Origin: Inonotus obliquus
Lineage: Eukaryota > Basidiomycota > Agaricomycetes > Hymenochaetales > Hymenochaetaceae
Assembly (NCBI GenBank): GCA_032164295.1
Contig: JAJHTX010000006.1
Span: forward strand, 2,852,001-2,916,000
Direction of reading: 5' to 3'
Length of the DNA: 64,000 bases
The notes beneath the pieces were generated by a model. The model ran no database searches. It was not told the DNA's origin and saw only the letters and a program-made list of their open reading frames with translations. Of this stretch, positions 16,195 to 64,000 are shown piece after piece. The translations under genes were made by a program, and so were the position numbers. Numbering within the stretch: the first letter of the stretch is position 1; the number at the start of each line of letters is the position of its first letter.

Positions 16195-16298
16195 GATAAC
16201 AATGCAAATGACTTAGCGAAAAAATTCTTCTTTGCTCTGATCGATGAGCGATGATGGTAAAAACTTGATATGAATGCAACCACAACTATCGAATAGCT

Positions 16299-16316: not shown

Positions 16317-16321
16317 AGTTT

Positions 16322-20859: not shown

Positions 20860-20876
20860 TTACCCCCTCTTCAAGG
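20860..20876 (-). other. Gypsy-2 polypurine tract
   Basis: On the minus strand the sequence just before the 3' LTR reads TTGAAGAGGGGGTAA. The purine run AAGAGGGGG is the expected plus-strand primer site. The pol stop codon TAA (20860-20862) overlaps it, so coding runs to the LTR edge. Confidence 0.75.
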
Positions 20877-23800: not shown

Positions 23801-24487
23801 TGAGGAATAACATATCGAGCTTTCGGAACGTCATGTTGCTTGCACGTTATCGGACATTCGTTGAAGTCTATGCATCCCAATTTCCAATCAATTGACGGAT
23901 TATGCCGGTTTAGCCATGAATATCCAAGGAACAGATTTGTTGATGCAATGGTGAGAACAGGCAAACGAAGCCGTTCCTTGTGGTTTTCGATTCAAAGGTT
24001 AAGCTCGACATAATGTGTCATCTTGCCTCCTTCGTTTACTGTTCTATTGGTGTTCGTGACATTTGTTGAATACGGGAGTTCTTTCGTCAGAATTTGATAA
24101 TGTTTGACGAAGCCAGCATCGATATAGGAGTCCGTACAACCTGAGTCTATCAACGCATGAGCATCTAACACTCTTCCATCATCAAGAATCAAATCAACGT
24201 ATAGGTCCAGCTCCTGCCGATATCCTGTCTTGTTTTCCTCTTCCATTTTTCTAACGACTGGGCCTTTGACAAGTTTGTCGAGGAGAAGCCCAAAGTCATC
24301 ATTGTCGAATTCTTTTCCTTCCGATTGTTCACTCTGTGTTTGATTTTTTAATTCGCCAGTTTTATTCGAGACTGTTTCATCTAATAGTGGTACATTTGAC
24401 GAATTATAATTTACTGGGGAGTGTAACGAATCGTCCGAGAAGCCTAAGCTAGAGACATCAACGTCATCTACTGGCTGTTCGAAAAAT
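20860..24487 (-). pseudogene. Gypsy-2 pol: protease-RT-RNase H-integrase-chromodomain
   Basis: A single minus-strand frame of about 1200 codons. In order: an acidic linker, protease (HALIDSGCTDSYID, 24130), RT with KKADGSLRAIQDYRKLN and YLDDILIF (23205), RNase H (VETDASDFATGG), an HHCC zinc domain (CDVCQRTK), the integrase core, and a C-terminal chromodomain starting YEVDEILDSRKH. In-frame TGA codons are at 23992, 22669, 22060 and 21094, each plausibly from CGA. RT motif A reads KLNVRWGY with Asn at 23401-23403 where Asp is catalytic. Integrase reads IVHNRGPQF with Asn at 21826-21828 where the second catalytic Asp belongs. Both are GAY to AAY changes. A chromodomain directs integration to marked histones in related chromoviruses. 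The frame overlaps gag in the -1 register. Confidence 0.9.
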
Positions 24488-25838
24488 CCTCGCCGTCGGG
24501 ATTACTTTCATCGACAGCTTCTTCTGCTTCAACCCTATGCGCTGCTGCTGACGCTATGTCGGCTTCTGCGAACAATTTGTTGCGGAGTAATTCCTTCATT
24601 TTGTCGGAGAGTTCAGCAACGACGGCTCGGACGGCTTGTGGGGTTTTCGGTGTCTTGCAGAACCTGGCTATGTGCCCCGGCTTCCCGCATTCCCAACACA
24701 CTCCATCACGTCGAAGACGTTGGAGGCTAACCTGCATTGGTTCGCCTTGTCCTCCAAACGTGACACCCGTTGCGTCTCTTTTGTTGCCGCGCGGCGGGTC
24801 GAATAGGGTCGGCTTTTGCAGTGCCGGCTGGAAGGTTTGTCGACGCGGAGGTTGCTGTGTTGGAGCGTTCTGTCGTCTTAGCTGACGAACCTCTTTTTCT
24901 TTTGCATCGAAGGTGATGGCATACAACTTCATTTCGTCGTATGTCTTAGGGTAGGTAGGTAGACGAATAATTGCTGTTGCAACTTCTTTGCACAGAGCCT
25001 TCTTCAGCTGCAGTAATACAACGTTAAGGTCACTCGTCACAATACCCACTTGACTCATCGCGATTTCAAAATTTGCAAGGAAGATGCTCATGTCGGCGTT
25101 TCCTTGACACATTTCCATCCATTGGGTATACGCCTGCTCTTTCTCTCCAGGGTCCTTGAATGACTGGTCGAGTTTCTCGAGGAACTTGTCGAAAGCATTG
25201 ATGATCTTAATTGCTCCTTTTGCATCTGTTATTCCGTCATAGTAGTTCTGAGCCCATGTCGACGCTGTTCCTTCTTTCATATACGAGAGGATGAACAAGA
25301 TCTTCTTCTTGTCTGTGACAAAGATCAAATTAGTGTCATCGGCGCTGATGTACGCCAGACATTCTCGACAGAATCGGAGGTAGTCCTTTTCTCCAGTGAA
25401 GGGTGTCGGCGGTGCGATCCCGAGATCTTTCATTGTCAATGACTTGGTCGCTTTGTTTTGAGCAGTCATTGCCGTCGCGACTAGGACGGCGAAGTCTTTA
25501 AGCTGATCTGCGGTGAACGACAACATTGTTGTTCGAGGATTCGAGGGGGTTCTCTGTAATCCAAACGCAGTTGATGTCGAAGGTAGCGATGGTGACGAGA
25601 GAGCGGGAGATTGAGGAGGCAGTGTGGGGGCAGAAGTTGACTGCGCTGGAGTCTTCGGTTTTGACCACTTGAAGATACTCTTATGTTCGTCAGTCTCCCA
25701 CGACACCCAAGCCTTGTTTGTCTCCGACCACCAGGCAGTTACTCTTTCGCCATTTCTTTGAGTGATAAGGGCCTTGTCTTCTTTGTCTATGACAGCACCT
25801 TGCGGAAGTGCAGCTAACTGTTCCGCTGAAAGAGTCAC
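24468..25838 (-). CDS. Gypsy-2 Gag (capsid and nucleocapsid)
   Basis: A 456-codon open frame encodes the structural protein of the particle. The N-terminal part has a Pro/Ser-rich linker (residues about 60-105), then an alpha-helical capsid-like retrotransposon gag domain (FTGEKDYLRFCRECLAYI through NAFDKFLEKLDQSF, residues about 150-330). A CCHC zinc knuckle, CWECGKPGHIARFC, is near residue 385. The listed start is a GTG-type codon, and related gag sequence continues upstream in another frame (26091-26375), so the true N-terminus is uncertain. The stop at 24468 is followed in the -1 frame by pol. A run of five T residues on the minus strand (24482-24486) lies in the overlap and is a candidate frameshift site. 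Confidence 0.85.
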   Translation of the reverse strand: MTLSAEQLAALPQGAVIDKEDKALITQRNGERVTAWWSETNKAWVSWETDEHKSIFKWSKPKTPAQSTSAPTLPPQSPALSSPSLPSTSTAFGLQRTPSNPRTTMLSFTADQLKDFAVLVATAMTAQNKATKSLTMKDLGIAPPTPFTGEKDYLRFCRECLAYISADDTNLIFVTDKKKILFILSYMKEGTASTWAQNYYDGITDAKGAIKIINAFDKFLEKLDQSFKDPGEKEQAYTQWMEMCQGNADMSIFLANFEIAMSQVGIVTSDLNVVLLQLKKALCKEVATAIIRLPTYPKTYDEMKLYAITFDAKEKEVRQLRRQNAPTQQPPRRQTFQPALQKPTLFDPPRGNKRDATGVTFGGQGEPMQVSLQRLRRDGVCWECGKPGHIARFCKTPKTPQAVRAVVAELSDKMKELLRNKLFAEADIASAAAHRVEAEEAVDESNPDGEDFSNSQ

Positions 25839-26090
25839 TTTGTCAACGTAGGAGGTCTTCCTCCTTCACTTCGATTTTGAGCTCTTCGAGTTTTATTTCA
25901 ACTTCTTCCTGCTTTACTTCAACGATTGGACATTGGGGACGGTATTTGAGTTTTACGGGATAGCAACGTCCGTATTTGTCGGTTGTTATAACGATGTCGT
26001 TCGGGTCGTAGTCAAGCCAATTGAATGGGATGATATACGACTTGGGTTTATGATAGTCCTGACGACGTCGTCGTTGAGGAGCCAGGTTGT

Positions 26091-26375
26091 TTATCGTTGA
26101 AAATCAGAGGAGTATTTGTTCAACGCTGGCGTCCACAGCTCGTCAATGCGAAATGTTGGTGTCCAGGAAATGAGCACTCGATGAAAGTGACGTGGGTCGT
26201 CGAAGTAAATGCCGACGTCAAACGGGACTAGGTGTTTGTTATCGTCGAGGTAGTACCCGAAGATAGCGTAGGTGGGATGAAGCTCGATTAAACTGATATA
26301 CTCGCAGAGGGAACACAGTACACCAGACATGCAACGTCGATCGACTCGACGTTCAGATAGCACGTGAACTCTCAC
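26091..26375 (-). pseudogene. Upstream gag-like ORF of Gypsy-2
   Basis: A 94-codon minus-strand opening between the 5' LTR and gag. It encodes a compact domain with Trp, Asp and aromatic residues (YYLDDNKHLVPFDVGIYFDD). A Glu/Lys-rich stretch (EVKQEEVEIKLEELKIEVKEE at about 25870-25930) lies between it and gag in shifted frames. It may be the original gag N-terminus or a separate ORF0. I do not recognise the domain. Confidence 0.4.
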
Positions 26376-26697
26376 GTCATCTCAGGGGGTTCAGCAACAC
26401 TTCGAAGAATGACTTTCCAACGTTCAATAACCGCTAGACACTACTGGGCTTTCTTGTTGCAAGCGACAACCGACAGTAGTGCTGTCAGAGAGAGGTGTCT
26501 TATCTACGTCGAACAAGGACTTGGGGCAACACTTCACGACAGTAGGTATATGAACGCCTCAGGGGTTCAACGACTATCCGCTGACCGACTTTGACAACGA
26601 GAGAAACAGAGGTAGAACGGAGGATGTTTGATACACATACGAGTTAGTTGTTGTTAACGTCGACAACTACGACACGAGTTAAAAGACTTTCTTGTTA
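26376..26697. other. Gypsy-2 5' untranslated leader
   Basis: This lies between the 5' LTR and the first gag-like ORF. Next to the LTR the minus strand reads TAACAAGAAAGTC, which lacks an obvious TGG primer site, so the priming tRNA or a self-priming mechanism is undetermined. Confidence 0.45.
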
Positions 26698-27268
26698 TGT
26701 TACGCTCTGCATCGTTAGGAGCGTCGATCACAAAGATCTAGGACGTCGACGAACACAGGTGAACGAGCTACTACTTAATCACAAGTGACCGTAGTCTGCG
26801 ACGTAGGTGATAGTACTAGATTAGCACGTCTAACTAAGGTACAAGTATTTGTACGACTTACCTGCGACGTAGGTGATAGTACTAGAACAAGAGAGTGGGG
26901 AATCCCTAACTCTCTGATCCAGCCTTATATACACTTTGGTTGCGGGTAAGTTCTACTCTAAATAGGTGCTGACTAGCAGCAAGTAAATATGAACAAACAA
27001 ACAACGGGGCCTGACGAGTCAGCAAGAATGAGTAAAGATGAGTAAGTGTTATCGGGTTAAACGGAAAGAAGAATAATGAGTCAGCAAGAATGAGTAATAA
27101 TAGAATGGGAAAAAGAATGAAAGGGAATGGTGGGATGAAGTTGTTATAGATTGTAATTAGCTAAGCCTGTATGTATTAAGTAAGGAATGTGGTTAAAAGG
27201 AGTGTAAATATGCATTGATGAAAATAAAAGAAAGGCCGTATAAAGAAAAGGGAAAAGGCGTTGTAACA
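26698..27268 (-). repeat. Gypsy-2 5' LTR (relative to element)
   Basis: Same termini and length (571 bases) as 20289-20859, differing by about 12 transitions. Followed at once by CAAAG, the target duplication. Confidence 0.95.
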
Positions 27269-27386
27269 CAAAGGGCATAAACAGAAAGTGAGTGGAAGCA
27301 AAGAGAGAAAGTAGTTTGTTCCTTTCCTGTAAATTCAGACCTAGACCTATGTCGCTTATACGTTTCTTTTTGTACCAATAGAATTA

Positions 27387-28467
27387 CTGCCTTTTTTATA
27401 TGTATTGTCACACTGTGATTTTGCCATTTTTGGCATCTTAAATCTCTCAAAATACAAACCTTGCTATATCTCCATAAAAACTTGACCATTTCGCATCATC
27501 TAAGTTGCTAAATTCATGTCTCAATTGTGCCGTTCGAAATGTAACAAATTTGAGTGAAATCAGTAGAGAATTGACTCTGAAATGGCGCAAAATGCTGTTT
27601 TTTCATACTTTTGTCTTCCACATTTTTTTCCTGCACTCAATTCTGGGTCTGCAGCACCCATAACTGTCTCAGAGCCCTCAGATGGAATAACTGTGAACTT
27701 AAAGAGTGAATTTGAGGTGTATTGTGAGCTGTATGTGCCAGTCTGAGTCATGCCTGAAATATAGAAATCTACCTATTCTCCCTGAGCTCCCCATGCCTCA
27801 GAACAAGCCAACTGAGGCCAAATTCATACATGTAAACTCACTCTGAGTGCCTTGGAAGAGGATTGAGTGCTTCTGAAGGCTGCTGTGCATAATGATGAGA
27901 AAAATAAGGTGGAAGAGACTAGGCATATGCACAATTCTCTCTGCCCTTCCTCAGCCTTCTAATCTAGGCATCAGCTCTAGGAAGGGCTCAGATAGCTTCC
28001 CATGCACTTAGAGTGAGTTTACATGTATGAATTTGGCCTCAGTTGGCTTGTTCTGAGGCATGGGGAGCTTAGGGGGAATAGGTAGATTTCTATATTTCAG
28101 GCATGACTCAGACTGGCACATACAGCTCACAATACACCTCAAATTCACTCTTTAAATTCACAGTTATTCCATTTAAGGGCTCTGAGACAGTTATGGGTGC
28201 TGCAGACCCAGAATTGAGTGCAGGAAAAAAATGTGGAAGACAAAAGTATGAAAAAACAGCATTTTGCGCCATTTCAGGATCAATTCTCTACCGATTTCGC
28301 TCAAATTTGTTACATTTCGAACGGCACAATTGAGACATGAATTTAGCAACTTAGATGATGCAAAATGGTCAAGTTTTTATGGAGATATAGCAAGGTTTGT
28401 ATTTTGAGAGATTTAAGATGCCAAAAATGGCAAAATCACAGTGTGACAATACATATAAAAAAGGCAG
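27387..28467. repeat. Foldback MITE M1 (1081 bases) with TA duplication
   Basis: A near-palindromic element begins CTGCCTTTTTTATATG and ends CATATAAAAAAGGCAG. The two arms of roughly 450-500 bases are inverted copies of each other, so the whole folds into a hairpin. TA flanks both ends (27385-27386 and 28468-28469). Copy 2 of the composite element has the unoccupied site at 60359-60370 (GAATTATATGAC), proving a TA-target insertion. Its arm sequence (TAAGTTGCTAAATTCATG and neighbours) is shared with M2-M5, though its outer termini differ. Confidence 0.92.
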
Positions 28468-28588
28468 TATATGACTCACTCTGATCAACAAAAAAAAACC
28501 TATTTCAAACACAACGTACATTGTATCCTGAGTGTCAAAAGAATGGCTGACAGTCTCTAGAAGTGACACAATAAGACTGAATATATAG

Positions 28589-29704
28589 TTACTCAATAAT
28601 TAATTGGTCTTCTTGCATCCGCAGGCCATGTTTCCAAGGTTTTGTCTTTATAAGCGAGAAGGCAAGCTCAATGAGATTGTAGTCTGATGAGTATGGAGAG
28701 AGAAACTCCAGTCTAGTGCCTCTATGTATACATCAGTACAACATTGGACAGAATACAATGATGAGGCTGACCTGGACTCTATGAGCTGACAGATCTCAGG
28801 AGTCTTGTATATCAAGCAGTTGTTCATCACAATTACAGACCTTGGTGCAGAAAATGGATCCATCTTGTTCAGAAGACTGACAATGAATTCTGCAAAGAGG
28901 TTCGCATTGAATGCATTCTCGATGACTACATAGTTAACTATCTCATCAAAACTGATTGCTGGTAGCAATAAATAGCTGCGCATGCAGAAGGTGTGAAAGG
29001 CAGATTAGACAGTCTGAAGGAATCAAATAATCAACTCACTGCTTTCCTCTTGTAAAGAAGTGCTTCCAACAAGCTCACCTAACCTCAAGTGCCTAGGCTT
29101 GATTTTGGATAAAAGTTCAGCAATCACAAGTACTTTTGTCTACAAACACCAGCTGCTCAGATGAGTAATGAGATCCCATTTGAGCCTGATAGTATGCGCA
29201 TTAAGTTTCATTACATTCCAGCACCATCTTTGAGATCTGAAACGTATTGTGTCAGCATATCCTGCACTACCTGAGCTTGACATGAAGCAGCCACCTTCTT
29301 CAGCCTGAAGCCTGTGTGCCTTAATGCCCTATATATGGTTGATTCTGAGACGTCTTGTCCTTGTCTCTGTTGCAACATATTCTTTAGTTCATCCAAATAG
29401 ACGTCATTTCGGTATCCCAATGAGCTGAGCAGGAACTATACAGCATGTATAAAAGGGTGTAAGTTAACTCTTTAGCATGATGACTCATCTCTGTATTAAT
29501 GTAATCTAATACTCTTGGCCTTTTGCAGTTCTTCAGGACCTCTGTTGAAACAGTCTCTTTGTGATTGTACTTCTGAATGATATCGTACAATGTACGTTTC
29601 GAAATGCCCGTACATTCTGAAATCTGCCTAACTCGAATCTCATGTTTATGAATCTTCACAATGCATTCCCTCAGATTGTCAGAAAGCCTTGAGTGGTGAG
29701 TCAT
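28589..29704 (-). pseudogene. IS630/mariner transposase, right arm of copy 1 (broken)
   Basis: This reads from ATG at 29704. The first helix-turn-helix (SRLSDNLRECIVKIHKHE, then TGISKRTLYDIIQKY), the second DNA-binding block (VYLDELKNMLQQRQGQ, 29211-29420) and the DDE core with NAFNANLFAEFIVSLLNKM and VIVMNNCLIYKTPEI (28800) are visible. The catalytic Asp is Asn here (MNNC for MDNC). Unlike the left arm, the 3' part is present: SSDYNLIELAFSLIKTK at about 28640-28680 contains the third acidic residue, ending at TAA 28589. Blocks lie in more than one frame, partly from introns, partly decay. Confidence 0.8.
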
Positions 29705-31613
29705 GATGACAATAGCAGTAGTAGAGTAGAGAGAGCGGCAAAGTGTCTCGAGAGGCACGTATACACACTGCATCTTACTTACTAATTGATTGTCCTCCTA
29801 CCTCTACTCCTAAGGTTCCTCAGTCTCAGCCTCTTTCACAAGTTTCTATGGACACTGGACGTCAGAGAGATTAATGCTCTTGGCAATAATCATTCTCACT
29901 GTCTCAGCATCTGATGGGATCACTGAGTTTACTTGATATACGATTCAGAGCCATAAAAAAGACAAATAGTAAACTGGCCTTATAAGCAACTCGGTCTGTA
30001 CTTCTGGAGTCTCGCTGATCGTACAACGGTTGGTGTGGGATTGACCGCAGCACACTAAACATGAAATAGCAAGTTACTCTTGCTGGGTTTGCAATTGGGC
30101 TAATCCTCAGAGGAAAAGGGAGGCAACTGCTCACAGCAAGTATGAAAGTTGTAAACTATACCCTATTACATTCTCACTGCTTCTACAGGATGAAGACATG
30201 TTGGAATGCCTTAGAATGCATTACAGAGGCTCGTAACTCCATACTTGCAACAACATATCATATTGAACTTCACCAACCATGAGCACCCTGCTCAATGTGG
30301 CTTCCTTTCTTAAGCTGGGCCAGACTGTATTTGTAGCAGATGAACTAAGAGGAGGTTGTCGTCGGGCCCTGTTCTCTGGGTCAGACATTACAGTATGTTT
30401 TGCTTATTCTGACAATGCAGCTACATGATATTTCTTGTGCATCCTACCATGTATAACTGCCTCTGTCTTAGCGCAAACTGTTAAGTAAAATTGATTCTTT
30501 ATATAGATGATTAGAACAGCAATATTGAGGGCTACTGCAACAATTATATTCAAACATGAATGAAACCTTTTGCAGTTTCCAAATTCATCACCCAGATTCA
30601 TACTAGGTAGAGGCAATTTTGTTGACTCAGACAATCTAGTCAATGGCAACAACTGGTGTGGTCTGTGGGGAGCATTGTGATGGCTAATACCTACAAGACT
30701 GTTTCCTTTCTTCTGAGGCCTATGCACAACAAATTTGCAAGATAGTAGCATGTATGGAAGCACATTTTTGAGTATATTTTTTATATGGTTGTATCATGTT
30801 TTCATGTGCAGTATTCAGTGAGTTATGAGCTTTGCATTGTCTGAAGAAGGAGGTGAGGTACATACTTGACATGATTGTGTTTCTTGTTTCGCCATGCTAA
30901 ATGTGCAAGATCGTGTCCGGTACTGAAATACTGAGACGAGAGGTATATGGTTTTAAGTGGAGGAGGGCTAATACATGCCAGTACTTAACCAGTATGGTCA
31001 CGGTACTTGTTGTCTATGAAAAGGGGGAGTTAATAGATAGGCCGGAAGCGAAGGGTATGTGATTCTGGTACAAAAAGGACAGGTCAGAATGTTGGAAAAA
31101 CTTCGGTATAAGTCGGTATAGGTCGGTACAAGGGAGAACATAGCAAAACAAAAGTCTAATACCGTGGGAAAAACCTCAGTACAGGTTGGTACAGAAGCAA
31201 AGAGGTCGGTTCGTGGAGGTATGTTGTCAAACGAAAAGGTCAGTACAAAAACAAAAGGGTGACATGCAGAATACGAAAGATAACAAAAGGTCAGTACCGT
31301 GGGAAAAAATGTTGGTACAGGTCGGTACTGCAAGAAAACAGCTAGTACGGGGCGGTATAGCAAGGGACTGAATGGGGGAGACTGGTAGATAAAGGTGTCG
31401 ACTGAGCTGGGAAGCAAACCTGAGCTCTCACATGGGAGGCTAACTCCGAAGGTTCACTTGAAATGGAACTAGGAAGGGACTGAGACAAAGCTCGAGACAA
31501 GACTGAGACAGAACTGAGAAGGGGGTGAGGAAACCCGAGCCCTCACGCTAGAGGCTAGCTCCTAAGATTATCTAGAGAGCTACTATGTATAGGAGGAGAT
31601 ATTTATACTACTA

Positions 31614-32096
31614 CAGTTGAACCTGTGGATAAGCATACCTGTGGATAAGCATAACCTGTACATAAGCATAGAAAATTTTGCCCACCGAGTTGGTAGACAG
31701 TAAAATCAGGGTCCAATAAGCATAATTCCATATAAGCATATAGCATAACGTTTTTGGGGAAGTCCTAATGAAATAATGCTTACTAGGAGGTAATCAGATG
31801 ATCTATTATTGCCTAATATAGAGGAAGTGTGACTAACTCCAACCTGGGACTAATTTTTTAAAGGCAACTAAGGATTAAGAAAGCAATTTTGCTTATCCAA
31901 ATCTGGCATATAGTATTCCAGAAACTGATATGTGAAAGAAATTGTAATTGTAAGTCACATGTCAATATTCTATGTTAATTAAATTTCCATTTTTTGAAGA
32001 ATTAGGTATTATGTAATGACGTTTACTAGCATAACCTGTAGTTAAGCATAGCCGAACCTGTCCACCGAGGGCTATGCTTATCCACAGGTTCAACTG
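31614..32096. repeat. TA-flanked MITE, 483 bases
   Basis: Terminal inverted repeats read CAGTTGAACCTGTGGATAAG inward from the left and the same from the right (CTTATCCACAGGTTCAACTG at 32077-32096). TA flanks both sides. Internal copies of the GTGGATAAGCAT motif are present near both ends. The interior is AT-rich and non-coding. Tc1/mariner/pogo-type by target and termini. Confidence 0.88.
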
Positions 32097-32111
32097 TATA
32101 CCGTAGTTAGC

Positions 32112-32930
32112 AGGGGGCATGTAGTGTAGTGAATACTATCACAGCTGCTGAAAGGTTACACACACCTTAGGTAAGCAGGGGGAGACCATGTGATCGAACC
32201 CTCTCATCCATGAAGCTCCAAGAATTGTTTAACAATTACCCACAAGGGTCCCAAAGTGGATAGGAGATTATAAATGAGGGAAAAGATAAGCAAAAACCAA
32301 CCGACACCAAGAGGTGAGAGGTCACCCTCTGCCTAGTTAGGCTTAAGTGGCTTCGGGCCATACTGCTAGGTGGTTAGTCCCTGTAGGGGGTAAGGCAGGT
32401 ACTGGTGTATTATGCGGATCTGTGCTATATGGCAATTACGAAGCAGGTGCACCGGAACGGGAAAGGCAAAAAGTACTGAAAAGGTCTTGATTTTCAACAA
32501 GAAATTTCAGAAATTGGAGCTTGGACCGTAGCGTGCTGGGCTAGAATCCCAACTCGCCTTGAGAGGACTTATCACCTGTCGGTCGGCGAGGCATTAAACA
32601 GCCCGGTTGGCTTAAGTTGATTCCATAATGCCGGGAACTGGGTCACCTAAGCCTTTATACGGTAATCCCCTCGCAAGGGCGGAATGCAATTGTGATCTAA
32701 GCCTACAGTTTATAATTTCTAAATATGTTTCTGTTACCCCTTCTAATTCCCCCACATCCTCAGCGTCGCACCCTTTAGTCCTTTCTTTAGAGCACCATAC
32801 TACTACCTTTTTCTCTGCTTTTCTTACTTCACCACTTATAGAGTTCCCACCACCATGTAGATTTTGTCTGCCGCGCACTTGTAACTAGAATTACTGACGC
32901 ACGTAATAAATACATTTAAAAAAAAAAAAA
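32112..32930 (+). repeat. Poly(A) retroposon, SINE-like or truncated LINE, 819 bases
   Basis: An 11-base direct repeat CCGTAGTTAGC flanks it (32101-32111 and 32931-32941). The 3' end has AATAAA then a 12-13 base A run (to 32930). The 5' end has possible RNA polymerase III boxes: GTAGTGTAGTG near 32121 (A-box-like) and TGATCGAACCC near 32192 (B-box-like). That suggests a tRNA-derived head, but 819 bases is long for a SINE. An 86-codon plus ORF at 32628-32888 has no recognised domain. Confidence 0.75.
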
Positions 32931-33779
32931 CCGTAGTTAGCTCATAAATCCAAAAGGAGAAATTAGAAAGAAAGATCAAAACAAAGAAAAGTCTGAAGAA
33001 AAATGTAACAAGGAAAGTGAATATTGCAGCGCCATCAGGGGGACAACAAGAAAGGGTTAAGGAGGACACAAGATACCAATGAAAGTGTAGCATATAGTAC
33101 CCCTGGATGAAAAGTTCTCAGAATAAGAGATTTGAACCTCTGCCAATTGATACCGATGCGTTCCTGGTAGTACCGGACCTGAAAACCTCAACGGATACTG
33201 ACCCTGAGCTTTCCCAAAGAACCGGCATGCATAGTCCAACCATCAGGAATGAATACCAGAGAGGGAGACGTCTGATCTATGTCATGAGAGCATGTCGAAT
33301 TGTCAATTTGTCTTGGTACCGGGTTTCTCGGCACTTGGCACTCTCGGTACTGGGTTTCTTGGCGCTTGGTACCAGTACCCTTGGCGTTCGGTACTTTGAG
33401 AAATAGGACCGACAGTTTCTCTAGGTGTGCTGGTAGATACTGGAAGGTGTAGATGGGACCGTACCGTAGCATGGGGTAAGTGTAGAATGGGATACCGGGC
33501 GCGATATCGAGCTCAGCCGCACGTGGTTCTCTTCAATGCACACATCACATTTCTGAGACATTTTTACACCATTGGAAGTGCATTTTTGAGTATATTTTTT
33601 ATGTATTTATATCAGAGTTTTACATGCAGTATTGATAGAGAAAATGGCTGATTAGTCTGTTTTCAACCTCTAAAGATATAATGTACGTCAAAAAAAAAGC
33701 ACGTGAGGGCCTAACTGCAAATGTTTTCATAAACAGCTGTAACATTAGATATTCAAAAAAGATGATTTGAAATAAGAAG

Positions 33780-53315: not shown

Positions 53316-53389
53316 TAATGTTGGCTTCACATGGACCAGGAGGTAGATGTTAGAAAGACAATATAACTCACTATTACTAAGTCTAATTA

Positions 53390-55803
53390 CAGCTGTTTGC
53401 AAAAACATTTGCAGTCAGCCCTTATGTGCTTTTTTTTAACACGCGTCAGGCCTTCAAAGGTCGAAAACGGACTAATCGGCCATTTTCTCTGTCAATACTG
53501 CACATAAAACTCTGATATAAACACGTAAAAAATGTACTCGAAAGCACACTTCTAACAGTGTAAAAATGTCTCAGAAATGTGATGTGTGCATGACAGAACA
53601 AGAAATACAATTGCATCAAGTATGTACCTCACCTCCTTCTTCAGGCAATACAAAGCTTGTAACTCACTGAATACTGCATGCGAAAACATGATATAACCGC
53701 ATAAAAAATACACTCGAAAATGTGCTTCCATACATGCTACTATCTTGCAAATTTATTGTGCATAGGCCTCAGCAGAAAGGAAACAGTCTTACAGGTATCG
53801 GTTATCACAATGCTCCCCGCAGACTGCACCAGTCATTGCCATCAACTAGATTGTCTGAGTCAACAAAATTGTCTCTACCTGGCATGCATCTGGGCGATGG
53901 ATTTGGAAACTGCAAAAGGTTTCATTCATGTTTAAATATAATTGTTGCAGTAGCCCTTAATATTGCTATTCCAATCACCTATATAAAGAATCAATTTTAC
54001 TTAACAGTTTGCGTCAAGACGGAGGCAGTTATACATGGTAGGATGTGCAAGGAATATTATGAAGCTACCTTGCCAGGATAAGCGGAACATACTGTAACGT
54101 CTGATCCAGAGAACAGGGCCCGACGACAACCTCCTCATAGTTCATCTGCTACAAATACGGTCTGGCCCAGCTTGAGAAAGAAAGCCACATTAAGCAAGGT
54201 GCTCACAGTTGGTGAAGTTCAATGTGATATGTCATTGCAAGTATAAAGTTACAAGCCTCTGTAATGCATCCCAAGGCATTCCAATATGTCTTATCCTGTA
54301 GAAGCAGTGAGAATATAATGGGGTATAATTTACAACTTTCATACTTGCTGTGGACAGTTGCCCTCCTTTTCTCCTGAGGATCAGCCCGATAGTGAATGCA
54401 GCAAGAGTAACTTGCTATTCCATGTTTAGTGTTCTGTGGTCAATTCCACACCAACCATTGTGCGATCAGCGAGACTCCAGAAGTACAGACCGAGTTGCTT
54501 ATAAGGCCAGTTCACTATCTGTCTCTTTTATGGCTCCAGATCACATGACAAGTAAATCAGTGATCCCGTCAGATGCTGAGACAGTGAGAATGATTATTGC
54601 TGAGAGCATTGATCTCTTCGACATCCAGTGTCTGTGAAAACTTGTGAAAGAGGCCGAGGCTGAGGAAATACACTGGTTAAGTACATGCAATAGGGGTGGG
54701 GTTAGAAGGACGATCAATTAGCAAGCAAGACATGGCGTGTACATGTGCCTCTCAGGACACTTCGCTGTGCCACTCTCTCTACTCTACTACTGCTATTATC
54801 ATCATGACTCGCCGCTCAAGGCTTTCCGTCGACCTGAGAGAATGCATTGTGAAGATTCATGAACATGGGATTCGAGTCAGGCAGATTTCAGAATGGACAA
54901 GCATTTCAGAACATACATTGTACAATATCATTCAGAAGTACAATCACAAAGGGACTGTTTCAATGGAGGTCCTGAAGAACCGCAGAAGGCAGAGAGCATT
55001 AGATTACATCAATACAGAGGTGAGTCATTATGCTGAAGAGTCAACTTGCACCTTTTATACATGCTGTATAGTTCCTGCTCAGCTCATTGAGATACCAAAA
55101 TGACGTCTATTTGGATGAACTAAAGGATATGTTGCAACAGAGACGAGGACAAGACGTCTCAGAATCAACCATATATAGGGCATTAAGGCACGCAGGCTTC
55201 AGGCTGAAGAAGGTGGCTGCTTTATGTCAAGCTCAGGTAGTGCAGAATATGCTGACACTGTACGTTTCAGATCTCAAAGATGGCACTGGAACACAACAAA
55301 ACTCAATGTGCATATTATTAGGCTCAAATAGGATCTCATTACTCATCTGAGCAGCTGGTGTTCATGGACAAAAGTGCTTGTGATCACCAAACTTTTATCC
55401 GAAATCAAGCCTAGGCACTTAAGGGTAGACAAGCATGTCGGAAGCACTTCTTCACAAGAGGAAAGTGGTGAGTCGATCATTTGATTCCTTCAGACTGTCT
55501 AATATGCCTTCTATGCCTTTCGCATGCAGCTATTTATTGCTACTGGCAATCAGTCTTGATGGGATGGTTGACTGTGTGGTCGTCGAGAATGCATTCAATG
55601 CAAACCTCTTTGTGGAATTCATCACTGGTCTTCTGAACAAGATGGATCTATTCCCTGCACCAAGGTCCGTGATCGTGATAGATAACTGCTCAATACACAA
55701 GGCTTCTGAGATCCATCAGCTCATAGAGTCCAGATCAGCCTCATCCTTGTTATCTGCCTAATGTTGTTCTGATGTATACATAGAGGCATCAGACTGAAGT
55801 CTT
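53390..55803 (+). repeat. Left inverted arm of composite copy 2
   Basis: Inverted copy of 60607-63010. The outer 230 bases are only about 88 percent identical to the other arm, but from about 53621 to 55680 I find one mismatch in the parts compared by eye. Open frames at 53722-54081 and 54350-54637 are identical to those at 62320-62679 and 61764-62051. No separate gene is claimed for them. Confidence 0.9.
54804..55803 (+). pseudogene. IS630/mariner transposase, left arm of copy 2 (3' truncated)
   Basis: ATG at 54804 begins the first helix-turn-helix (SRLSVDLRECIVKIHEHG). A GTGAGT intron donor follows INTE near 55020. The second DNA-binding block is VYLDELKDMLQQRRGQ to RALRHAGFRLKKVA (55087-55350). 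The DDE core has DGMVDCVVVENAFNANLF and VIVIDNCSIHKASEIHQL (55680). Sequence departs from the right arm after about 55800, before the last catalytic Glu, so it cannot be active. The same cut occurs in copy 1. Confidence 0.83.
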
Positions 55804-56212
55804 TGGGGATTCAAACTACAATCCGGTCATTCTGTATCTTCTACTAGTGCACCTGTAATATAGTAGCTGATTTGTCACTTGTACCTGTCTAAATTCTACC
55901 GTTTCTTTGTATTCTGCCTACATTGTCCTTTGCAAAGTGGAGGACAGAAGCTGCCAGTCCATAGCTGACTTGTACATCATCTTGTGCGACCATGCCGAGT
56001 AGATCTGACACTGACAGTTGTGCAAGCACCAGGTCAACCCATAGATAACCATTCTTCTTCAACACATCAGCAAATACCATATAGTTGCACTGGTCTCGAC
56101 CTCGTTCTCTGTCATCCTCACAAGTCTTCAACCATATGTCAACCAGGGGATAGTTTCGGATTTTGTATAGCGGAGATGCACTTGTTCTTCTATGCCTTTC
56201 AGGTCTATGCGA
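55804..56212 (-). other. Region between left arm and left cargo gene, copy 2
   Basis: A minus-strand open segment at 55889-56131 (MKTCEDDRERGRDQCNYM at its start) may be a final exon of the left cargo gene. Domain unknown. Colinear with 1861-2209. Confidence 0.35.
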
Positions 56213-57851
56213 TCATCTGCAGTAGCCATGCTGCTCCCTCGAGGACGAACTATTGCTGTATACCTTCCGATGGCGACAATTTCTGACATACAAGCGGCAA
56301 GGACTGCAGTACTGACGATGCTTGTGACCACCTCTATAGGACTCAGGAGAACACCGTTCTGAGTGTCGGTAACTTCTCCGTGATCTGCTCCTCTCTTGTC
56401 TCACTCTCAGAGTGGATTCAGATTCACTATCACTACAGTCACTGCTCAATAAACTAGACTGTCTCCGATTGTTTCCTGATTCAGATGATCTCTGTGCATG
56501 TCTTGCCTCATTGTTAGAGTCCTGATTATTGTTGGCACATTGCTTTCTTCCCTGGTGGCTTTACACGGTCCATCAACTTCGGTTGAGTAGGGATCTCTCA
56601 GGATGTCACACCTGGTGTATCAGCCAACTGTGTCATTATTAAAATACTACTGGGCAGAAAATCTTGAACATCAGAACTTACAATTAGTCGAGCATGATCA
56701 GCATAATTCATTATATTATAATGTATATGCTTGCCGTTATAGTGGACCAGACAGATGTCCTGTGGGTGCTTGTTGCATACAAGATTTCTCTTGATTTCGT
56801 TTATAGTAGAGCCAAGAATCTCCTTCTGGTTCATCTTCTTTTACTGATTTGTAGTTGGAGCAGTCGTGATCAGCTTTGTTGCATTTGCTGCATTGAAACA
56901 TTTCGGACCATTCTGCGTAATGATGTATTATCATATCAGATATGCGCAGTAATTTGACGAAGGAGAGGAAAAATCACTGTTTCGTCGTTCATGTTGTGAA
57001 TAATAACCTCACAAGTGATATTTGGCTTCTTCTTCTTTTTCTGTTCTGTAATATACTCCTCAATGCCTCTCGCTATTTCATCAAGCTCTTCTTTGGAATA
57101 CAAATAACATGGTGTCACCTTCTGGGCAGTGGTCTTCTTGAACTAAGGGGCAGTGTAACCAAGTGAAACAGAGATGTAATGACATTGAAGGATTTCTGCA
57201 ACATTCCTGCAAACATCATGGAGAGCATCCAATGAGCCAATTGCCAATCTCCGTAAACTATATCCATCATTGACTAGAGCTGTAAAAGGAGTGTGTCGTT
57301 TAAATACATTGCTGGCAGGTTGACATCTATCTTAGGCAGGCGCGGATGTCACGATATCATTTCTGCCACCTAGTAAACTACTAAGTCATACAAATACATC
57401 TCTAGAATGGCTTGTACATACCAGGAGAGAGTTCTGAATCAAAGAAAGTTATTGATCCCTCTCAATAAGTAGGGTCTGCTTCCACATCTTCAATAATATT
57501 CACAATATCTACTTGTAATGGTTCTTCTTGCTCTTCATCCTCTTTATAAATGAGGGTAAGATCGCAATGAGCACCTATAACTTGAGGTTCAACCTGAAAA
57601 AAAAAATGTCTATTAGACTGGCATTTTCGTAGCTGGGTAACTATCTAAACCTCTTTCTCAGTATTTTCAATGGGCTTTTTAGAGTGTCCCCACTTTGGTG
57701 GGTTTTCAGGTCGGGATCCTTTTCTCTTTGTAGCCCTGGCCTTTACCACTGTAGCATTGGGCTTTGCGGCCGCCCTCGTTTTTCGTACTGCTTTGCCTCT
57801 GCAGGCCACAGATGCCTGCTCTAGCAGATTATTTCTCTTCCTAGGAGTCAT
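56213..57851 (-). pseudogene. Left cargo gene of composite element, copy 2 (function unknown)
   Basis: ATG at 57851 starts a basic N-terminus (MTPRKRNNLLEQASVACRG, then KARATKRKGSRPE). An intron runs from a GTTTAG donor to a TTTTTTCAG acceptor near 57600. The next exon is acidic (HCDLTLIYKEDEEQEE) with a TGA where copy 1 has CAA. Further in are LVNDGYSLRRLAIGSLDALH, then KEELDEIARGIEEYITEQ followed by five Lys (56990). A Cys/His cluster CSKCNKADHDC (56890) resembles a zinc knuckle with shortened spacing. The C-terminal part is Arg/Ser-rich (RSRRSYRHSERCSPESY, 56213-56449). An RNA- or DNA-binding structural role is a guess. It is broken by several stops and frame changes. Confidence 0.55.
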
Positions 57852-58294
57852 CGTGATGTTGAGGGGAAAAAAAAGAAAGGATGGCAAAGGTGGTTTCCGA
57901 AATGACATGACAATATTTTCTCATGTTTCAATAGCAATTTTTGCTACTTTAAGAATGCTCTTTTACGTACTCAAATTTCTGCATCTTTCGTACTTCTTAC
58001 AGTACTTGCATGTTCACCGACAACTGATTGTTTGGTTGCACATATACATGTACATACAGTATGGTGCATGCCAAGCATCTAGTGCATCAGGGTACACCTT
58101 CTCACGGGGCAGAACAGGTAGAACAGGAACCTTGATAAGCTACTAGTTCTCTATTCCCATTCTCATTGCCACCCATCACATCAGTCTAGCTTTTGCATCC
58201 TGCACAGTTTTATAGGTATGTGAGCTTCCTCTTGACATTGACATGTATGTTGAATGCTAGTATAGCATATCGGTCTCAGCAGGAAGAAGAGAAG
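57852..58294. promoter_or_regulatory. Divergent intergenic region between the two cargo genes, copy 2
   Basis: This separates the start codons of the two divergent genes. It includes CATGTTCACCGACAACTG at 58009, the empty counterpart of the Gypsy-1 site in copy 1, and a probable 5' intron of the right gene (GTATGTGAGC at 58215 to TGCTAG at 58260). No defined promoter element was recognised. Confidence 0.5.
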
Positions 58295-60292
58295 ATGGCT
58301 ACTTCAGGTTTGATCGTTATCAATGTCGGTGGGGACAGGTCTAATTGCTCGATCAACAGCCCAGCAGATGCTTCCAGCAGGAAGGGAGGTTCCCAGAAAG
58401 CCACAGTCCCCAAGCCCACACCTGAGCCCGATAGCAACAAATGACAACAATTGTATATGTCTCAACCTTACTTATAGCCTAGATCTGGTCCTTATATATT
58501 CTCAGCGGATGACACCAAGGAACTAAAGGAATAGGCAGACAATGCTCAAAAATGCCTAGCCCAGGAGAAGGAAATGAGTGTCATTGACTCTCTGCTCGTG
58601 ACGATAATCGGCAAGTTGGATGCCCAGAACAAGGCACATAAAGAAACTCAGGTCGAGTTAGAGAAACTTAAGAGGAAGCAGGAGGATTCAGCTACCAGAC
58701 ATGAATTGAACGAAGTAAGGTCAAGGAACAATACTGTTGGAATTCAGCTTGCAGAGAGTGTGCTCAATCTGGAAGAGATGATCTTGATGAATGTGAGTTT
58801 CATGTGACGAGTGATAACTGTGCAAATAACATATTTTTAGGACATTGTCAGAAGTGACTATATATTCTATCGTAACTTCTCTAACAATATTATGTGCACT
58901 ATTTACAATGGCACCTGTGCAGTCCTGTCGATGATGTTTGTTGCTGAAACTGGAATCAAGCTACTGCAGCAAGTGTTCCTCCCAACAGGCAGATTCTACA
59001 AAGAGACATTTTAGAAGTAGTGACTTGCATACTTGGATTTAAACCCGCTGCTGCAGAAGGAGAAAGAGGTCAAATCATGGCACAATGCAAAGCTAAAGTC
59101 ATTGCAGGAACATATATCTTATGCAGCAACTATAGAGCGGTCGCCAACGCGAGACCAACTTTGGCAAGTTTTGACTTTCATGCTTCGAGATACCAAGAAA
59201 CCACTCAAGGACAAAATCCAGAAAGAGGTTGAGGGTCTCAAAGCTGAGCAGGCAGAGAATAATTGATACAATGACAAAGCAGCAGGGTATTGGAAAAAAC
59301 TTACCGACAAGCACAATATTGATCCCACTGGTAACCTTTTGAAAGTAGATGATGTTAAAGTAGTGCCAATTGATCCCAAGGACAATAGACAGCTCAATGA
59401 CATTATCACTGATTGTGACATCTTGAATGGCTTCTAACTTTTAACGGAACACGATAAAGACACTTACAAGACATGAACGTACTATAAATTCCACATTAAG
59501 GAAGCATAAGGGACGGCTAATAACATTGGCAATTGTAAGGTGCAACTCGCTAAATTAGAGAGTATCTACTACTTGATGTCGTGAGCTTTTACGATTCTAG
59601 AGGATGATAACTTGATACAGTTCTTCCTTACTGATCGCTCGCACATCTTTAGGATCTTAGGAAACCTTTCCGCTCATCCACATGACAGTTTCAAGAAGAC
59701 AATGTAGGCTATAGAGCAGATCGATCTGAGACTTCAAAACTTCGAAGCTCATGACAGAGAAGCGAGGTTTCATACCAGTAGTGCCAAACAGAAAATGGCA
59801 ATGCTTACCATAGCATACAAGAAGCACCGGCCAGCCGATATAAACGATTTCATCTTTTACCCGCTCGAAGTTGCGGAGGGGATTTGGTATGGGATTCCAG
59901 AGGAAACTCGGAGATTATTGGCCCCATCATTGGAAATCTTCTCCCACAAAGGAACAGTCAAGATTGTTCCAAGACTGGAAGACAGTTATTTCGATAAGAA
60001 GGCTTCTGAGAATGTCAGCACATCTATTGGTAGCTTCGCTCCTTCAACGTCAGCAATACAGACAACCCCTCTTCTGACAACTACCTTTGCGAGTCAAAAT
60101 CCATTCAACGTGCTGAGCAGTGCAGAGAGTGGAGATTTTGATTCTAACATGGCAGAAGGTTCAAATTCAGATTCAGGGACATTGCCAAGCCCACCGCTGT
60201 CACAAACCCTGATGAGTGGCAAGGACAAGGGCAAGAGTGCATGGGTGAATATGTTAGACAAGAAAGCGAGCGGAAGCAAAAAGAGAAAGTAG
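58295..60292 (+). pseudogene. Right cargo gene of composite element, copy 2 (function unknown)
   Basis: ATG at 58295. The first exon is Ser/Pro-rich (SINSPADASSRKGG). A later coiled-coil-like block holds KLDAQNKAHKETQVELEKLK (58610-58690). An intron with donor GTGAGTTTC (58794) and acceptor TTTTTAG (58840) leads to DYIFYRNFSNN. A helical core continues at 59033-59266 (LQEHISYAATIERSPTRDQ) and beyond (WKKLTDKHNIDPTGNLLKVD). The last open block, 59795-60292, has EVAEGIWYGIPEETRRLL, a Ser/Thr/Pro-rich stretch and a basic C-terminus ending SGSKKRK, a likely nuclear localisation signal. At least eight in-frame stops separate the blocks; several are intact codons in copy 1 (TGG, CAG, CAA). About 600 codons in all. 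No known family recognised; not a transposase by motif. Confidence 0.6.
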
Positions 60293-60499
60293 TTTGTTCC
60301 TTTCCTGTAAATTCAGACCTAGACCTATGTCACTTATGTGTTTCTTCTTGTACCAATAGAATTATATGACTCACTCTGATCAACAAAACAAAATCCTATT
60401 TTAAACACAACATACATTGTATCCTGAGTGTCAAAAGAATGACTGACAGTCTCTAAAAGTGACACAATAAGACTGAATATATAGTTGCTCAATAATTGA

Positions 60500-61597
60500 T
60501 TAGTCTCCTTGCATCTGCAAGCTATGTCTCTGAAGTTTTGTCTTTATAAGTGAGAAGGCAAGCTCAATGGAATTGTAGTCCGGTGAGTATGAAGGGAGAA
60601 ACTCCTGTCTGACGCCCCTATGCATACATCAGAACAACATTGGGCAGATAACAAGGATGAGGCTGACCTAGACTCTATGAGCTGATGGATCTCAGAAGCC
60701 TTGTGTATTGAGCAGTTGTCCATCACGATCACGGACCTTGGTGCAGGGAATAGATCCATCTTGTTCAGAAGACCAGTGATGAATTCCACAAAGAGGTTTG
60801 CATTGAATGCATTCTCGACGACCACACAGTCAACCATCCCATCAAGACTGATTGCCAGTAGCAATAAATAGCTGCATGCGAAAGGCATAGAAGGCATATT
60901 AGACAGTCTGAAGGAATCAAATGATCGACTCACCACTTTCCTCTTGTGAAGAAGTGCTTCCGACATGCTTGTCTACCCTTAAGTGCCTAGGCTTGATTTC
61001 GGATAAAAGTTTGGTGATCACAAGCACTTTTGTCCATGAACACCAGCTGCTCAGATGAGTAATGAGATCCTATTTGAGCCTAATAATATGCACATTGAGT
61101 TTTGTTGTGTTCCAGTGCCATCTTTGAGATCTGAAACGTACAGTGTCAGCATATTCTGCACTACCTGAGCTTGACATAAAGCAGCCACCTTCTTCAGCCT
61201 GAAGCCTGCGTGCCTTAATGCCCTATATATGGTTGATTCTGAGACGTCTTGTCCTCGTCTCTGTTGCAACATATCCTTTAGTTCATCCAAATAGACGTCA
61301 TTTTGGTATCTCAATGAGCTGAGCAGGAACTATACAGCATGTATAAAAGGTGCAAGTTGACTCTTCAGCATAATGACTCACCTCTGTATTGATGTAATCT
61401 AATGCTCTCTGCCTTCTGCGGTTCTTCAGGACCTCCATTGAAACAGTCCCTTTGTGATTGTACTTCTGAATGATATTGTACAATGTATGTTCTGAAATGC
61501 TTGTCCATTCTGAAATCTGCCTGACTCGAATCCCATGTTTATGAATCTTCACAATGCATTCTCTCAGGTCGACGGAAAGCCTTGAGCGGCGAGTCAT
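60500..61597 (-). pseudogene. IS630/mariner transposase, right arm of copy 2 (most complete)
   Basis: Reads from ATG at 61597. First helix-turn-helix with VKIHKHGIRVRQISEWTSIS. GTGAGT intron near 61380. Second DNA-binding block VYLDELKDMLQQRRG (61051-61314). DDE core at 60544-60966 with VIVMDNCSIHKASEIHQL keeping the second Asp. In a shifted frame follow FLPSYSPDYNSIELAFSLIK (60560-60610), the block with the third acidic residue, and a stop TAA at 60500. The first catalytic region near QLVFMDKSACD (61030) is recognisable. It lacks few parts but contains frame changes, some of which may be introns. Confidence 0.85.
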
Positions 61598-63010
61598 GAT
61601 GATAATAGCAGTAGTAGAGTAGAGAGAGTGGCACAGCGAAGTGTCCTGAGAGGCACATGTACACGCCATGTCTTGCTTGCTAATTGATCGTCCTTCTAAC
61701 CCCACCCCTATTGCATGTACTTAACCAGTGTATTTCCTCAGCCTCGGCCTCTTTCACAAGTTTTCACAGACACTGGATGTCGAAGAGATCAATGCTCTCA
61801 GCAATAATCATTCTCACTGTCTCAGCATCTGACGGGATCACTGATTTACTTGTCATGTGATCTGGAGCCATAAAAGAGACAGATAGTGAACTGGCCTTAT
61901 AAGCAACTCGGTCTGTACTTCTGGAGTCTCGCTGATCGCACAATGGTTGGTGTGGAATTGACCACAGAACACTAAACATGGAATAGCAAGTTACTCTTGC
62001 TGCATTCACTATCGGGCTGATCCTCAGGAGAAAAGGAGGGCAACTGTCCACAGCAAGTATGAAAGTTGTAAATTATACCCCATTATATTCTCACTGCTTC
62101 TACAGGATAAGACATATTGGAATGCCTTGGGATGCATTACAGAGGCTTGTAACTTTATACTTGCAATGACATATCACATTGAACTTCACCAACTGTGAGC
62201 ACCTTGCTTAATGTGGCTTTCTTTCTCAAGCTGGGCCAGACCGTATTTGTAGCAGATGAACTATGAGGAGGTTGTCGTCGGGCCCTGTTCTCTGGATCAG
62301 ACGTTACAGTATGTTCCGCTTATCCTGGCAAGGTAGCTTCATAATATTCCTTGCACATCCTACCATGTATAACTGCCTCCGTCTTGACGCAAACTGTTAA
62401 GTAAAATTGATTCTTTATATAGGTGATTGGAATAGCAATATTAAGGGCTACTGCAACAATTATATTTAAACATGAATGAAACCTTTTGCAGTTTCCAAAT
62501 CCATCGCCCAGATGCATGCCAGGTAGAGACAATTTTGTTGACTCAGACAATCTAGTTGATGGCAATGACTGGTGCAGTCTGCGGGGAGCATTGTGATAAC
62601 CGATACCTGTAAGACTGTTTCCTTTCTGCTGAGGCCTATGCACAATAAATTTGCAAGATAGTAGCATGTATGGAAGCACATTTTCGAGTGTATTTTTTAT
62701 GCGGTTATATCATGTTTTCGCATGCAGTATTCAGTGAGTTACAAGCTTTGTATTGCCTGAAGAAGGAGGTGAGGTACATACTTGACGCAATTGTGTTTCT
62801 TGTTCCACCACACACACATCACATTTCTGAGACATTTTTACACCATTAGAAGCGTGCTTTCGAGTACAGTTTTTACGTGTTTATATCAGAGTTTTATGTG
62901 CAGTATTGACAGAGAAAATGGCTGATTAGTCTGTTTTTGACCTCTGAAGGCATGACGTGCATAAAAAAAAGCACGTGAGAACCAACTGTGAATGTTTCTG
63001 CAAACAGCTG
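60607..63010 (-). repeat. Right inverted arm of composite copy 2
   Basis: Inverted copy of 53390-55803. Ends CAAACAGCTG then TA. Contains two subterminal tandem units of about 179 bases (starting near 62671 and 62850). The transposase extends past the arm boundary to 60500. Confidence 0.9.
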
Positions 63011-64000
63011 TAATAACCTAAGCAATCCCAATATAAATTAGATACAGGAAAGGTTGAATGCAGTTACATGAGCACTATGATAGCCAATAATACCAGCAAC
63101 ACTGAGATCAGAAGTGTTATAGTACTATAGTATCCATAAATCAGCACACAAGATAACAGAGAAGCTACTTCAAGAGATACTGAAAGAAATAACATATACA
63201 GCAATAATAAAAGAACAATCAGACATAATGATTAGGAGACGATTCATCATAATGAATAACAAACCAAATACAACTATATATAAGGCTTATGGATAAGAAG
63301 TCGGATTACTCTCATACAATAATTATTACTTCCTAATGGCAATAGGAATACAGAATGTTGCTTCAAAAGAAGACAATCATAAATGCAATGTAACAGTACT
63401 GGACATTGATATTCTATACAGAAACAAATCTGAATATGTAGTAAGAGAGTCAGCCTTTAAGTAGACTGAGTATCTAGTCCGAAGGCTTAAGCAATTACTG
63501 ATAGGAGGAAGAACAGTTGTAGAAGTAAAGGAAGATCAACATAGAGGAATAATAAGGATCAAAGAAATCCAAGGTAGATTACTAGCAGATATAGCAGTAG
63601 CACCAGAATACGCTAGAGTGCAGCAGGTGATTAATAATATTGACACACCTAGGGCAATAACATTACTAAGATGACAAAGTGCAGGAACATAGACAGAGCC
63701 GATGCATATGTCTGTATGGCACATGACCTAAATATTACCAAGTATGGCAAAGTTTGCTTGACAGCTTTAATGCCGATCACATGGTATGAACCTTGACAAT
63801 GTAATGCACCACTAACACCAAATGAAGTGGTATAAAGCTAGGTGGGAGGAGAGAGAATACTAAGGAAAGGACTGGAAGGTAATGAAAGTATGACATAAGG
63901 TATTTAGAGTCATAAGAAAACAGATATGAGTGGAACTGATGTGAACAAGTCATAAAGCAATGCACAGCAGCTAGCATTAAGTATGATTAGGTCTAAAAGT
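63011..64000 (+). other. Unassigned, possibly decayed retroelement coding
   Basis: An A-rich plus strand. One frame at about 63370-63680 is open with two stops and encodes a Lys/Arg/Val-rich segment (RRLKQLLIGGRTVVEVKED, then GIIRIKEIQGRLLADIAVA). It looks protein-like, with alternating strands and charged turns, but I do not recognise it. No repeat boundary is visible except the composite TA target at 63011. Confidence 0.3.

Follow-up and report, generated by a model that had tools for sequence, protein, structure and literature searches.

A probable three-gene Tc1/mariner-type transposon with transposase-bearing terminal inverted repeats in Inonotus obliquus

Introduction

Tc1/mariner elements are the textbook one-gene transposons. 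Minos, a Tc1-type element, has terminal inverted repeats (TIRs) of several hundred bp, and the bacterial transposons Tn10 and Tn5 carry two inverted terminal transposase genes, one of them defective. Here we describe a 9.6-kb unit from the fungus Inonotus obliquus (assembly GCA_032164295.1, 36.07 Mb in 30 contigs) in which two inverted arms, each with a transposase gene, enclose two further genes. It occupies positions 53390-63010 of a 64,000-nucleotide stretch of contig C6 (C6:2852001-2916000, hereafter “the window”). We interpret it, with considerable confidence, as a single autonomous-type, three-gene, long-TIR DNA transposon of the Tc1/mariner-IS630 superfamily, whose TIRs include most of the transposase gene.

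The nearest described architectures that we found are the Tec and TBE elements of ciliates. Tec elements of Euplotes have a Tc1/mariner-type transposase, three open reading frames (ORFs), one of them in the complement, and TIRs of ~700 bp; the combination of very long TIRs and three ORFs has been described as highly unusual, with the life cycle of ciliates put forward as a reason (PMC7325037). TBE elements of Oxytricha encode a Tc1/mariner transposase and two further ORFs of unknown function, one of which is reversed, and the 57-kD ORF is the least conserved (PMC4724952). Their TIRs are ~80 bp long (PMC7325037), and that of TBE2.1 stops right before the transposase start codon (PMC4724952). 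Tc1 elements measure ~1300 bp and have a single ORF (PMC7325037). In Galileo/Foldback-type elements long terminal inverted repeats are the main feature, and Galileo is placed with P-element relatives (PMC3573991). Among the titles and abstract openings listed in the literature searched, which leaves most subscription journals and Repbase outside it, no element like the one reported here appears for a fungus, which is weak evidence of novelty.

Architecture of the unit

The unit reads arm, gene A, gene B, inverted arm, with genes A and B divergent. Its parts, and an older copy in the same window, are as follows.

53348..53389, plus strand: left part of the interrupted dispersed repeat (the target); ends in TTA, the last two bases being the TA duplicate
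53390..55800, plus strand: left long terminal inverted repeat (arm), 98.3% identical to the right arm over 2415 bp
54804..55800, plus strand: left transposase gene, with helix-turn-helix (HTH) and DDE_3 parts and no last exon; start codon placed by eye
55889..57908, minus strand: gene A, approximate model, decayed by stop codons
58295..60292, plus strand: gene B, approximate model, decayed; start codon placed by eye
60413..61597, minus strand: right transposase gene, with the last exon (LPSYSPDYNSIELAFSLIK); crosses the arm border into the interior
60601..63010, minus strand: right long terminal inverted repeat (arm), complementary to the left arm
63011..63160, plus strand: right part of the interrupted repeat, starting with the second TA copy
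1..33739, plus strand: older copy 1 of the unit, starting at C6:2849681 and split by nested insertions

The inverted arms at 53431-55800 and 60601-62970 are 99% complementary. With the ends included (53386-55800 and 60601-63014) they span 2415 bp and are 98.3% identical in inverted orientation, so that the unit has terminal inverted repeats, as is characteristic of the Tc1/mariner-IS630 (ITm) superfamily. The sequence CAGCTGTTTGCA occurs without mismatch exactly twice in the window, at 53390 on the plus strand and at 62999-63010 on the minus strand. On both sides the unit ends with CAGCTGTTTGCA preceded by TTA; the left flank closes with TTA and the right flank opens with TAA. A first-pass annotation of this DNA had proposed a unit of two arms bounded by such termini and by TA duplications, with a mariner/IS630 transposase in each arm and two non-transposase genes between. 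Each of these features was recovered: the arms match, two divergent sets of non-transposase reading frames lie inside, the terminus is intact at both ends, HTH and DDE_3 segments are present with the DDE exon in both arms, and the TA duplication is seen both in the flanks and against empty sites with one TA (see below).

In each arm the transposase gene starts ~1.4 kb from the unit end. When one ORF per arm was scanned, HTH_23 scored above the Pfam cut-off (27.8 vs 24.6 bits) and HTH_SB below it, giving the N-terminal HTH DNA-binding domain typical of Tc1/mariner-IS630 transposases. The transposase model of the unit designated C8a matched DDE_3 with E=2.4e-22. Its second D and its E are separated by 34 residues, the D-34-E spacing, and the same spacing is found in P0001 of Sanghuangporus baumii, the closest protein found for the transposase (68% identity over 33% of the query). 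A search of solved structures with the C8a model reached Sleeping Beauty only at E=0.32, alongside ribosomal-protein matches at E 0.4-0.95. By DDE_3, D-34-E, HTH, TA duplication and TIRs the unit is a Tc1/mariner-IS630 element.

The two transposase genes of the unit are not equivalent. The DDE exon is present in both arms; the last exon is in the right arm only, at C6:2912527 on the minus strand (C-terminal match C6:2912413-2912622). The left transposase thus lacks the last exon and with it the third catalytic residue.

In the described features covered above, the fungal unit resembles Tec elements in its Tc1/mariner transposase, its long TIRs and its three ORFs. It differs in that its TIRs are 2.4 kb long and contain the transposase gene itself, and the hosts are unrelated. 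TBE elements share with it a Tc1/mariner transposase and two further ORFs, with one ORF reversed, and their least conserved 57-kD ORF parallels the fast-evolving gene B of the fungal unit. In the fungal unit, by contrast, most of the transposase gene lies inside the TIR. With Tc1-type (DD34E) elements the unit shares DDE_3 with D-34-E, the TA duplication and TIRs; in contrast to them, the fungal units are 8-10 kb long and have three genes. Long terminal inverted repeats are a likeness to Galileo/Foldback-type elements, but Galileo is grouped with relatives of the P element and the fungal unit is of the Tc1/mariner type.

Recurrence in the genome

A genome search returned at least 50 matches to the arm and at least 40 to the interior. 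The order arm, interior, arm, complete or partial, was found in a family A (the window copy, copy 1 on C6, and copies on C2, C11, C3 and C10) and in a family B (C8a, C8b, C13a, C13b, C5, C12 and the pair C11b/C11c), whose arm pieces are ~68-80% identical in DNA to the window arm. The layout is conserved across families, being common to the 13 units read, the window unit included; the C11b/C11c pair is counted among the 13 with its two ends read as separate pieces. Many of the units are split by later insertions, and further units on C4 and C9 and a second on C5 lie outside the fetched set. Arms and interior were thus found together repeatedly in what was examined, and the possibility that they always occur separately does not hold there.

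Clustering of the listed matches yielded 62 loci for the transposase and 32 for gene A. Among neighboring transposase pairs no more than 40 kb apart with gene A between them (n=25), 22 face inward (+,-) and three are (-,-). Random orientation would give ~6 inward pairs (binomial P ~6e-11), with the reservation that the analyst set the distance limit (40 kb) and the gaps used in clustering, and that two of the 22 pairs, which look like an inverted duplication on C5, are not fully independent.

In all 13 family A and B units read, the last exon, which carries the third catalytic residue, was present in one arm and absent from the other. Within family A, the window copy and those on C2, C11 and C3 have their arm border at one and the same point of the arm. 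A third family, C, is represented by inverted repeats at C2:1078886-1080369/1084862-1086338 and C5:867127-868102/889997-890972, and here the last exon is present in both arms (2/2 units read). The outer ends of both family C units are damaged, and a C5 end near 866227 has the sequence TTACAGTGAATTCC. Because the last exon lies in one arm in families A and B and in both arms in family C, the sequences indicate that the inverted-repeat border is different between families, and that within family A it is inherited.

The first-pass annotation had placed copy 1 at 99-33739 of the window. The copy is real, has the same layout and ends at 33739, but it starts 2.3 kb outside the window, at C6:2849681. 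The claim that a 3′ truncation of the left transposase is common to both copies agrees with our reading of the last exon. The interior of copy 1 is interrupted at positions 2209/2213 by 14 kb of DNA that holds genes of a Ty3-type long terminal repeat (LTR) element. Inside copy 1, nested Ty3-type genes were recognized at 4010-18048 and 22669-25838 of the window (integrase and protease; reverse transcriptase/RNase H and gag).

Insertion of the unit as a whole

The flanks of the window copy were joined into a 205-nucleotide query, with 57 bases from the left, 148 from the right and one TA removed. It matched 40 places (the best 40 of 48 candidates scored). The remaining match apart, which is the window copy's own right flank, 39 of these cross the joint at 80-86% identity. 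All eight empty sites that were fetched are contiguous at the joint, reading ATTAATAACC in six (TTAA) and ATTGATAACC in two (TTGA), and relative to the six TTAA sites the filled site has one extra TA. The window copy thus has the TA target site duplication of ITm elements, in alignment with 8/8 empty sites, and the empty sites show that the unit moves by its outer ends. The window copy inserted whole, with TA duplicated. Mobility as one unit, which had been proposed earlier as an inference together with a search of aligned flanks for TA empty sites, is in this way established as an insertion event for this copy.

Termini were read wherever a BLAST match extended to the end of the arm. Of these 19, 17 are preceded by TTA (the exceptions are C2 right and C12 left), which a TTAA target with TA duplicated explains. 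When the 600-bp flanks of six copies were compared, the sole sequence they shared was a dispersed 1.08-kb foldback repeat.

These data bear directly on the idea that the copies arose by segmental duplication through recombination in repeat-rich regions and not by transposition. The units do cluster on their contigs, and two C5 units, inverted relative to each other, score for the most part alike in the matches, which makes at least one such duplication probable. However, the ends are precise and preceded by TTA, the empty sites of the window copy are contiguous at base resolution, and the flanks of six copies are unrelated apart from the foldback repeat, so that a single duplication including flanking sequence, the alternative named in the first-pass annotation, does not hold for the copies examined. 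As a general explanation, duplication is extremely improbable. For the window copy it is ruled out by the empty sites; it is still likely for the C5 pair. The members of that pair, both of family B, lie at C5:969757-976458 and 990224-996822 and are probably a recent inverted duplication.

Pairing and decay of the arms

We compared arm positions 1434-2381 in 11 copies. With all sites included, each of the 11 copies has its own two arms as sisters, and the FastTree local support of the arm pair is below 0.9 only for copy 1 on C6 (0.787). Identity between the arms of a copy ranges from 88.5% in copy 1, which is close to the between-copy level, to 99.9% in C13a. The differences are mostly transitions in nine of the 11 copies (for example, 34 transitions to 5 transversions in the window copy and 258 to 16 in copy 1); C13a (0 to 1) and C13b (7 to 3) have too few differences for an excess to be judged. 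CpG is depleted, with observed/expected ratios of 0.23-0.67.

Most simply, each copy would insert with two equal arms, which afterwards decay through deamination-like mutation. The equalizer may be gene conversion from arm to arm in active copies, or a repair process in which one arm is copied from the other. Long inverted repeats can convert each other, and the pairing of arms in every copy would also be expected if conversion after insertion, and not equality at insertion, kept them alike. We consider this unlikely: arm identity falls to 88.5% in copy 1, so old copies are not kept alike.

Genes A and B

Gene A has a basic start, a KKKK-rich middle and a conserved C-terminal part. Gene B is coiled-coil-like with a basic tail and evolves fast. 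Both are decayed in the window copy, and the gene models contain apparent introns. Such introns, the Ty3-type element genes and the Sanghuangporus baumii match fit a basidiomycete host, perhaps of the Hymenochaetales. No Pfam family scored above cut-off for either gene in the models scanned, although gene B had sub-cut-off matches, several of coiled-coil type. A further difference from Tec elements is that no site-specific recombinase was recognized by Pfam in the fungal A or B models, distant homology being possible. In a protein database, none of the scored candidates matched the C13a models of A and B at E<=1e-3, in a search that required shared 5-residue words, which distant relatives may escape, and that in one run scored the best 7996 candidates by shared words. 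Structure prediction from single sequences gave two pieces of gene A a mean predicted local distance difference test score (pLDDT) of 52.2 and 45.9, too low for a fold search.

The ratio of nonsynonymous to synonymous substitution rates (dN/dS) was calculated with stop codons skipped (1-18 per comparison) and no correction for transition bias. Between families, relative to C13a, gene A has low values of 0.21 (window copy, 350 codons) and 0.26 (C2, 407 codons), and the transposase has 0.23 and 0.16 in the same comparisons; with dS near 1 these between-family ratios are rough. Within family B the values are 0.37-0.55 for gene A, 0.23-0.46 for the transposase and 0.45-0.82 for gene B. Between families gene B gives 0.21 for C2, over only 82 codons; for the window copy the comparison is saturated. 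When family B gene B was searched against the C2 unit of family C, no match fell below E=0.97.

Gene A looks to be under selection like the transposase and, because its dN/dS resembles that of the transposase, it is probably a gene of the element. Other gene A relatives in the genome are weaker, mostly ~27-40% identical, and many adjoin the same transposase type, so that gene A accompanies it in families down to ~27% identity. The alternative that the inner genes are captured host genes is unsupported, given that these relatives are weaker and often beside the same transposase and that gene A looks selected.

Comparison with composite transposons

The first-pass annotation likened the unit to bacterial composite transposons. 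As in Tn10 and Tn5, two inverted transposase genes lie at the ends, one is defective, and the unit moves by its outer ends. In a true composite, two formerly independent, inverted transposase elements would have mobilized trapped genes. Inward-facing transposase genes flanking two other genes agree with such an origin, as do the family C units with the last exon in both arms (2/2 read), and stand-alone elements may exist, considering the listed transposase loci without an inward partner.

The flanking elements of a composite, however, each possess two ends of their own, and inner ends were looked for in vain. Inside the window unit, with 300 bp trimmed per end, the best match to the 30-nucleotide terminus was 19/30 on either strand, which is not convincing (50 letter-shuffles gave maxima averaging 17.4, with a highest of 19). 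Near the inner arm borders (up to 60 bases away), the window copy gave no more than 14 and 13 matching positions out of 30. In the loci read, a relaxed end pattern was found at outer ends, at one foldback end (C8:784448) and, loosely, at two sites inside family B arms. An arm of the fungal unit should therefore not move alone, in contrast to those of Tn10 and Tn5, and none of the listed arm matches stood out as a stand-alone arm element, although no systematic search was made. One arm lacks the last exon in all 13 family A and B units read. The inner genes of a composite are passengers unrelated to transposition, but gene A, at least, appears to be a conserved gene of the element.

The label “composite” in its bacterial sense is hence not sustained: no inner ends were found, the last exon is in one arm only in the family A and B units read, and gene A accompanies the transposase across deep families and looks selected. 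The composite transposon in the strict sense is rejected because no inner ends were found, and we regard an origin from two independent elements as very unlikely.

Proposed mechanism and implications

We propose that the unit is a single long-TIR transposon that works as follows. The complete transposase would bind the outer ends, TTA followed by CAGCTGTTTGCA, and cut out or copy the whole 8-10 kb unit, presumably by cut-and-paste, and insert it at TTAA with duplication of TA. One arm encodes the whole enzyme and the mirrored arm, in families A and B, a version without the last exon and the third catalytic residue. At each insertion the two arms would be equal, probably owing to gene conversion between them in active copies, and from then on each would decay on its own, chiefly through transitions. 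Selection would maintain gene A and, with less stringency, gene B, both of which presumably assist or regulate transposition. The shortened transposase keeps its DNA-binding part and, speculatively, might compete with the full enzyme.

Several observations weigh against this reading. With transversions only, the arms of a copy are sisters in 9/11 copies (C5 and copy 1 on C6 fail), and the within-copy transversion rate of C5, 0.0140, exceeds the closest between-copy value, 0.0065. A clean empty site was obtained for one of five copies tested, with C11a outside the test. The repeat in the left flank of C8a continues over TTAA in six copies read and the right flank is different DNA; since this flank is not the continuation, something has been lost or rearranged there. 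The flanks of copy 1 on C6 match places ~2 kb apart in an apparent single retroelement type. No repeat was found across the joint of the joined C2 flanks, and the C2 right flank starts with TTA, not TAA. The C8b query, with only seven right-flank bases, matched elsewhere only to base 131 of the left flank. Stops or nested insertions are present in the copies looked at, which may therefore no longer be active. The inward-facing pattern is common, not universal, as 16 of the 62 listed transposase loci lie outside any inward pair. Finally, genes A and B belong to no recognized family, and their models are approximate.

The copy 1 flanks themselves (C6:2849531-2849680 and C6:2885740-2885889) appear to be LTR retroelement sequence, with TTAAC at the joint and a deletion or recombination at the site.

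More broadly, the unit may represent a class of transposon whose gene-bearing terminal repeats are re-equalized in each round of movement, much as LTRs are, with the dead partner of families A and B as a possible built-in, always-matching regulator and family C as a eukaryotic counterpart of composite transposons; we put this forward very tentatively, as an idea more likely wrong than right. If it were true, each family A or B copy would carry one complete transposase and a matched, catalytically dead partner. With three genes, 2.4-kb gene-bearing TIRs, a heritable border at the last exon and paired arms, the system would offer a test of how long TIRs stay equal, and it could show whether a truncated transposase inside a TIR regulates the full one. 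It also shows how an architecture like that of a composite can come about with no need of two independent transposons.

Foldback and other neighboring elements

The window contains palindromic foldbacks of ~1.08 kb with TTACAG-type ends at 42729-43811, 45334-46414 and 52234-53317, and others of the same kind lie at C2:1066963-1068053 and C8:783367-784451. The foldback sequence gave 93 matches on both strands, at several dozen places in the genome. Most foldback ends read resemble those of family C (TTACAGTGAATTCCATAATAATTTGGACACG), and the ends of the foldback at C8:783367-784451 resemble those of families A and B (TTACAGCTATTTGCAG). This resemblance suggests that the foldbacks may be non-autonomous derivatives moved by these transposases.

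Foldback sequence starts ~16-125 bp from the end of the large element in four of 12 flanks examined, namely at window 52234-53317, which adjoins 53390, and in right flanks of C2, C11 and C8. The proximity reflects either a shared target preference or nested insertion.

Between two of the foldbacks, at window ~45054-45330 on the minus strand, is a diverged transposase fragment (DDE 44%, last exon 56%). On C8 we also noted a different element (C8:744087-746252 / 748113-750278), with inverted arms of 2166 bp that are 99.9% identical and have different ends (AATTCTAACACA).

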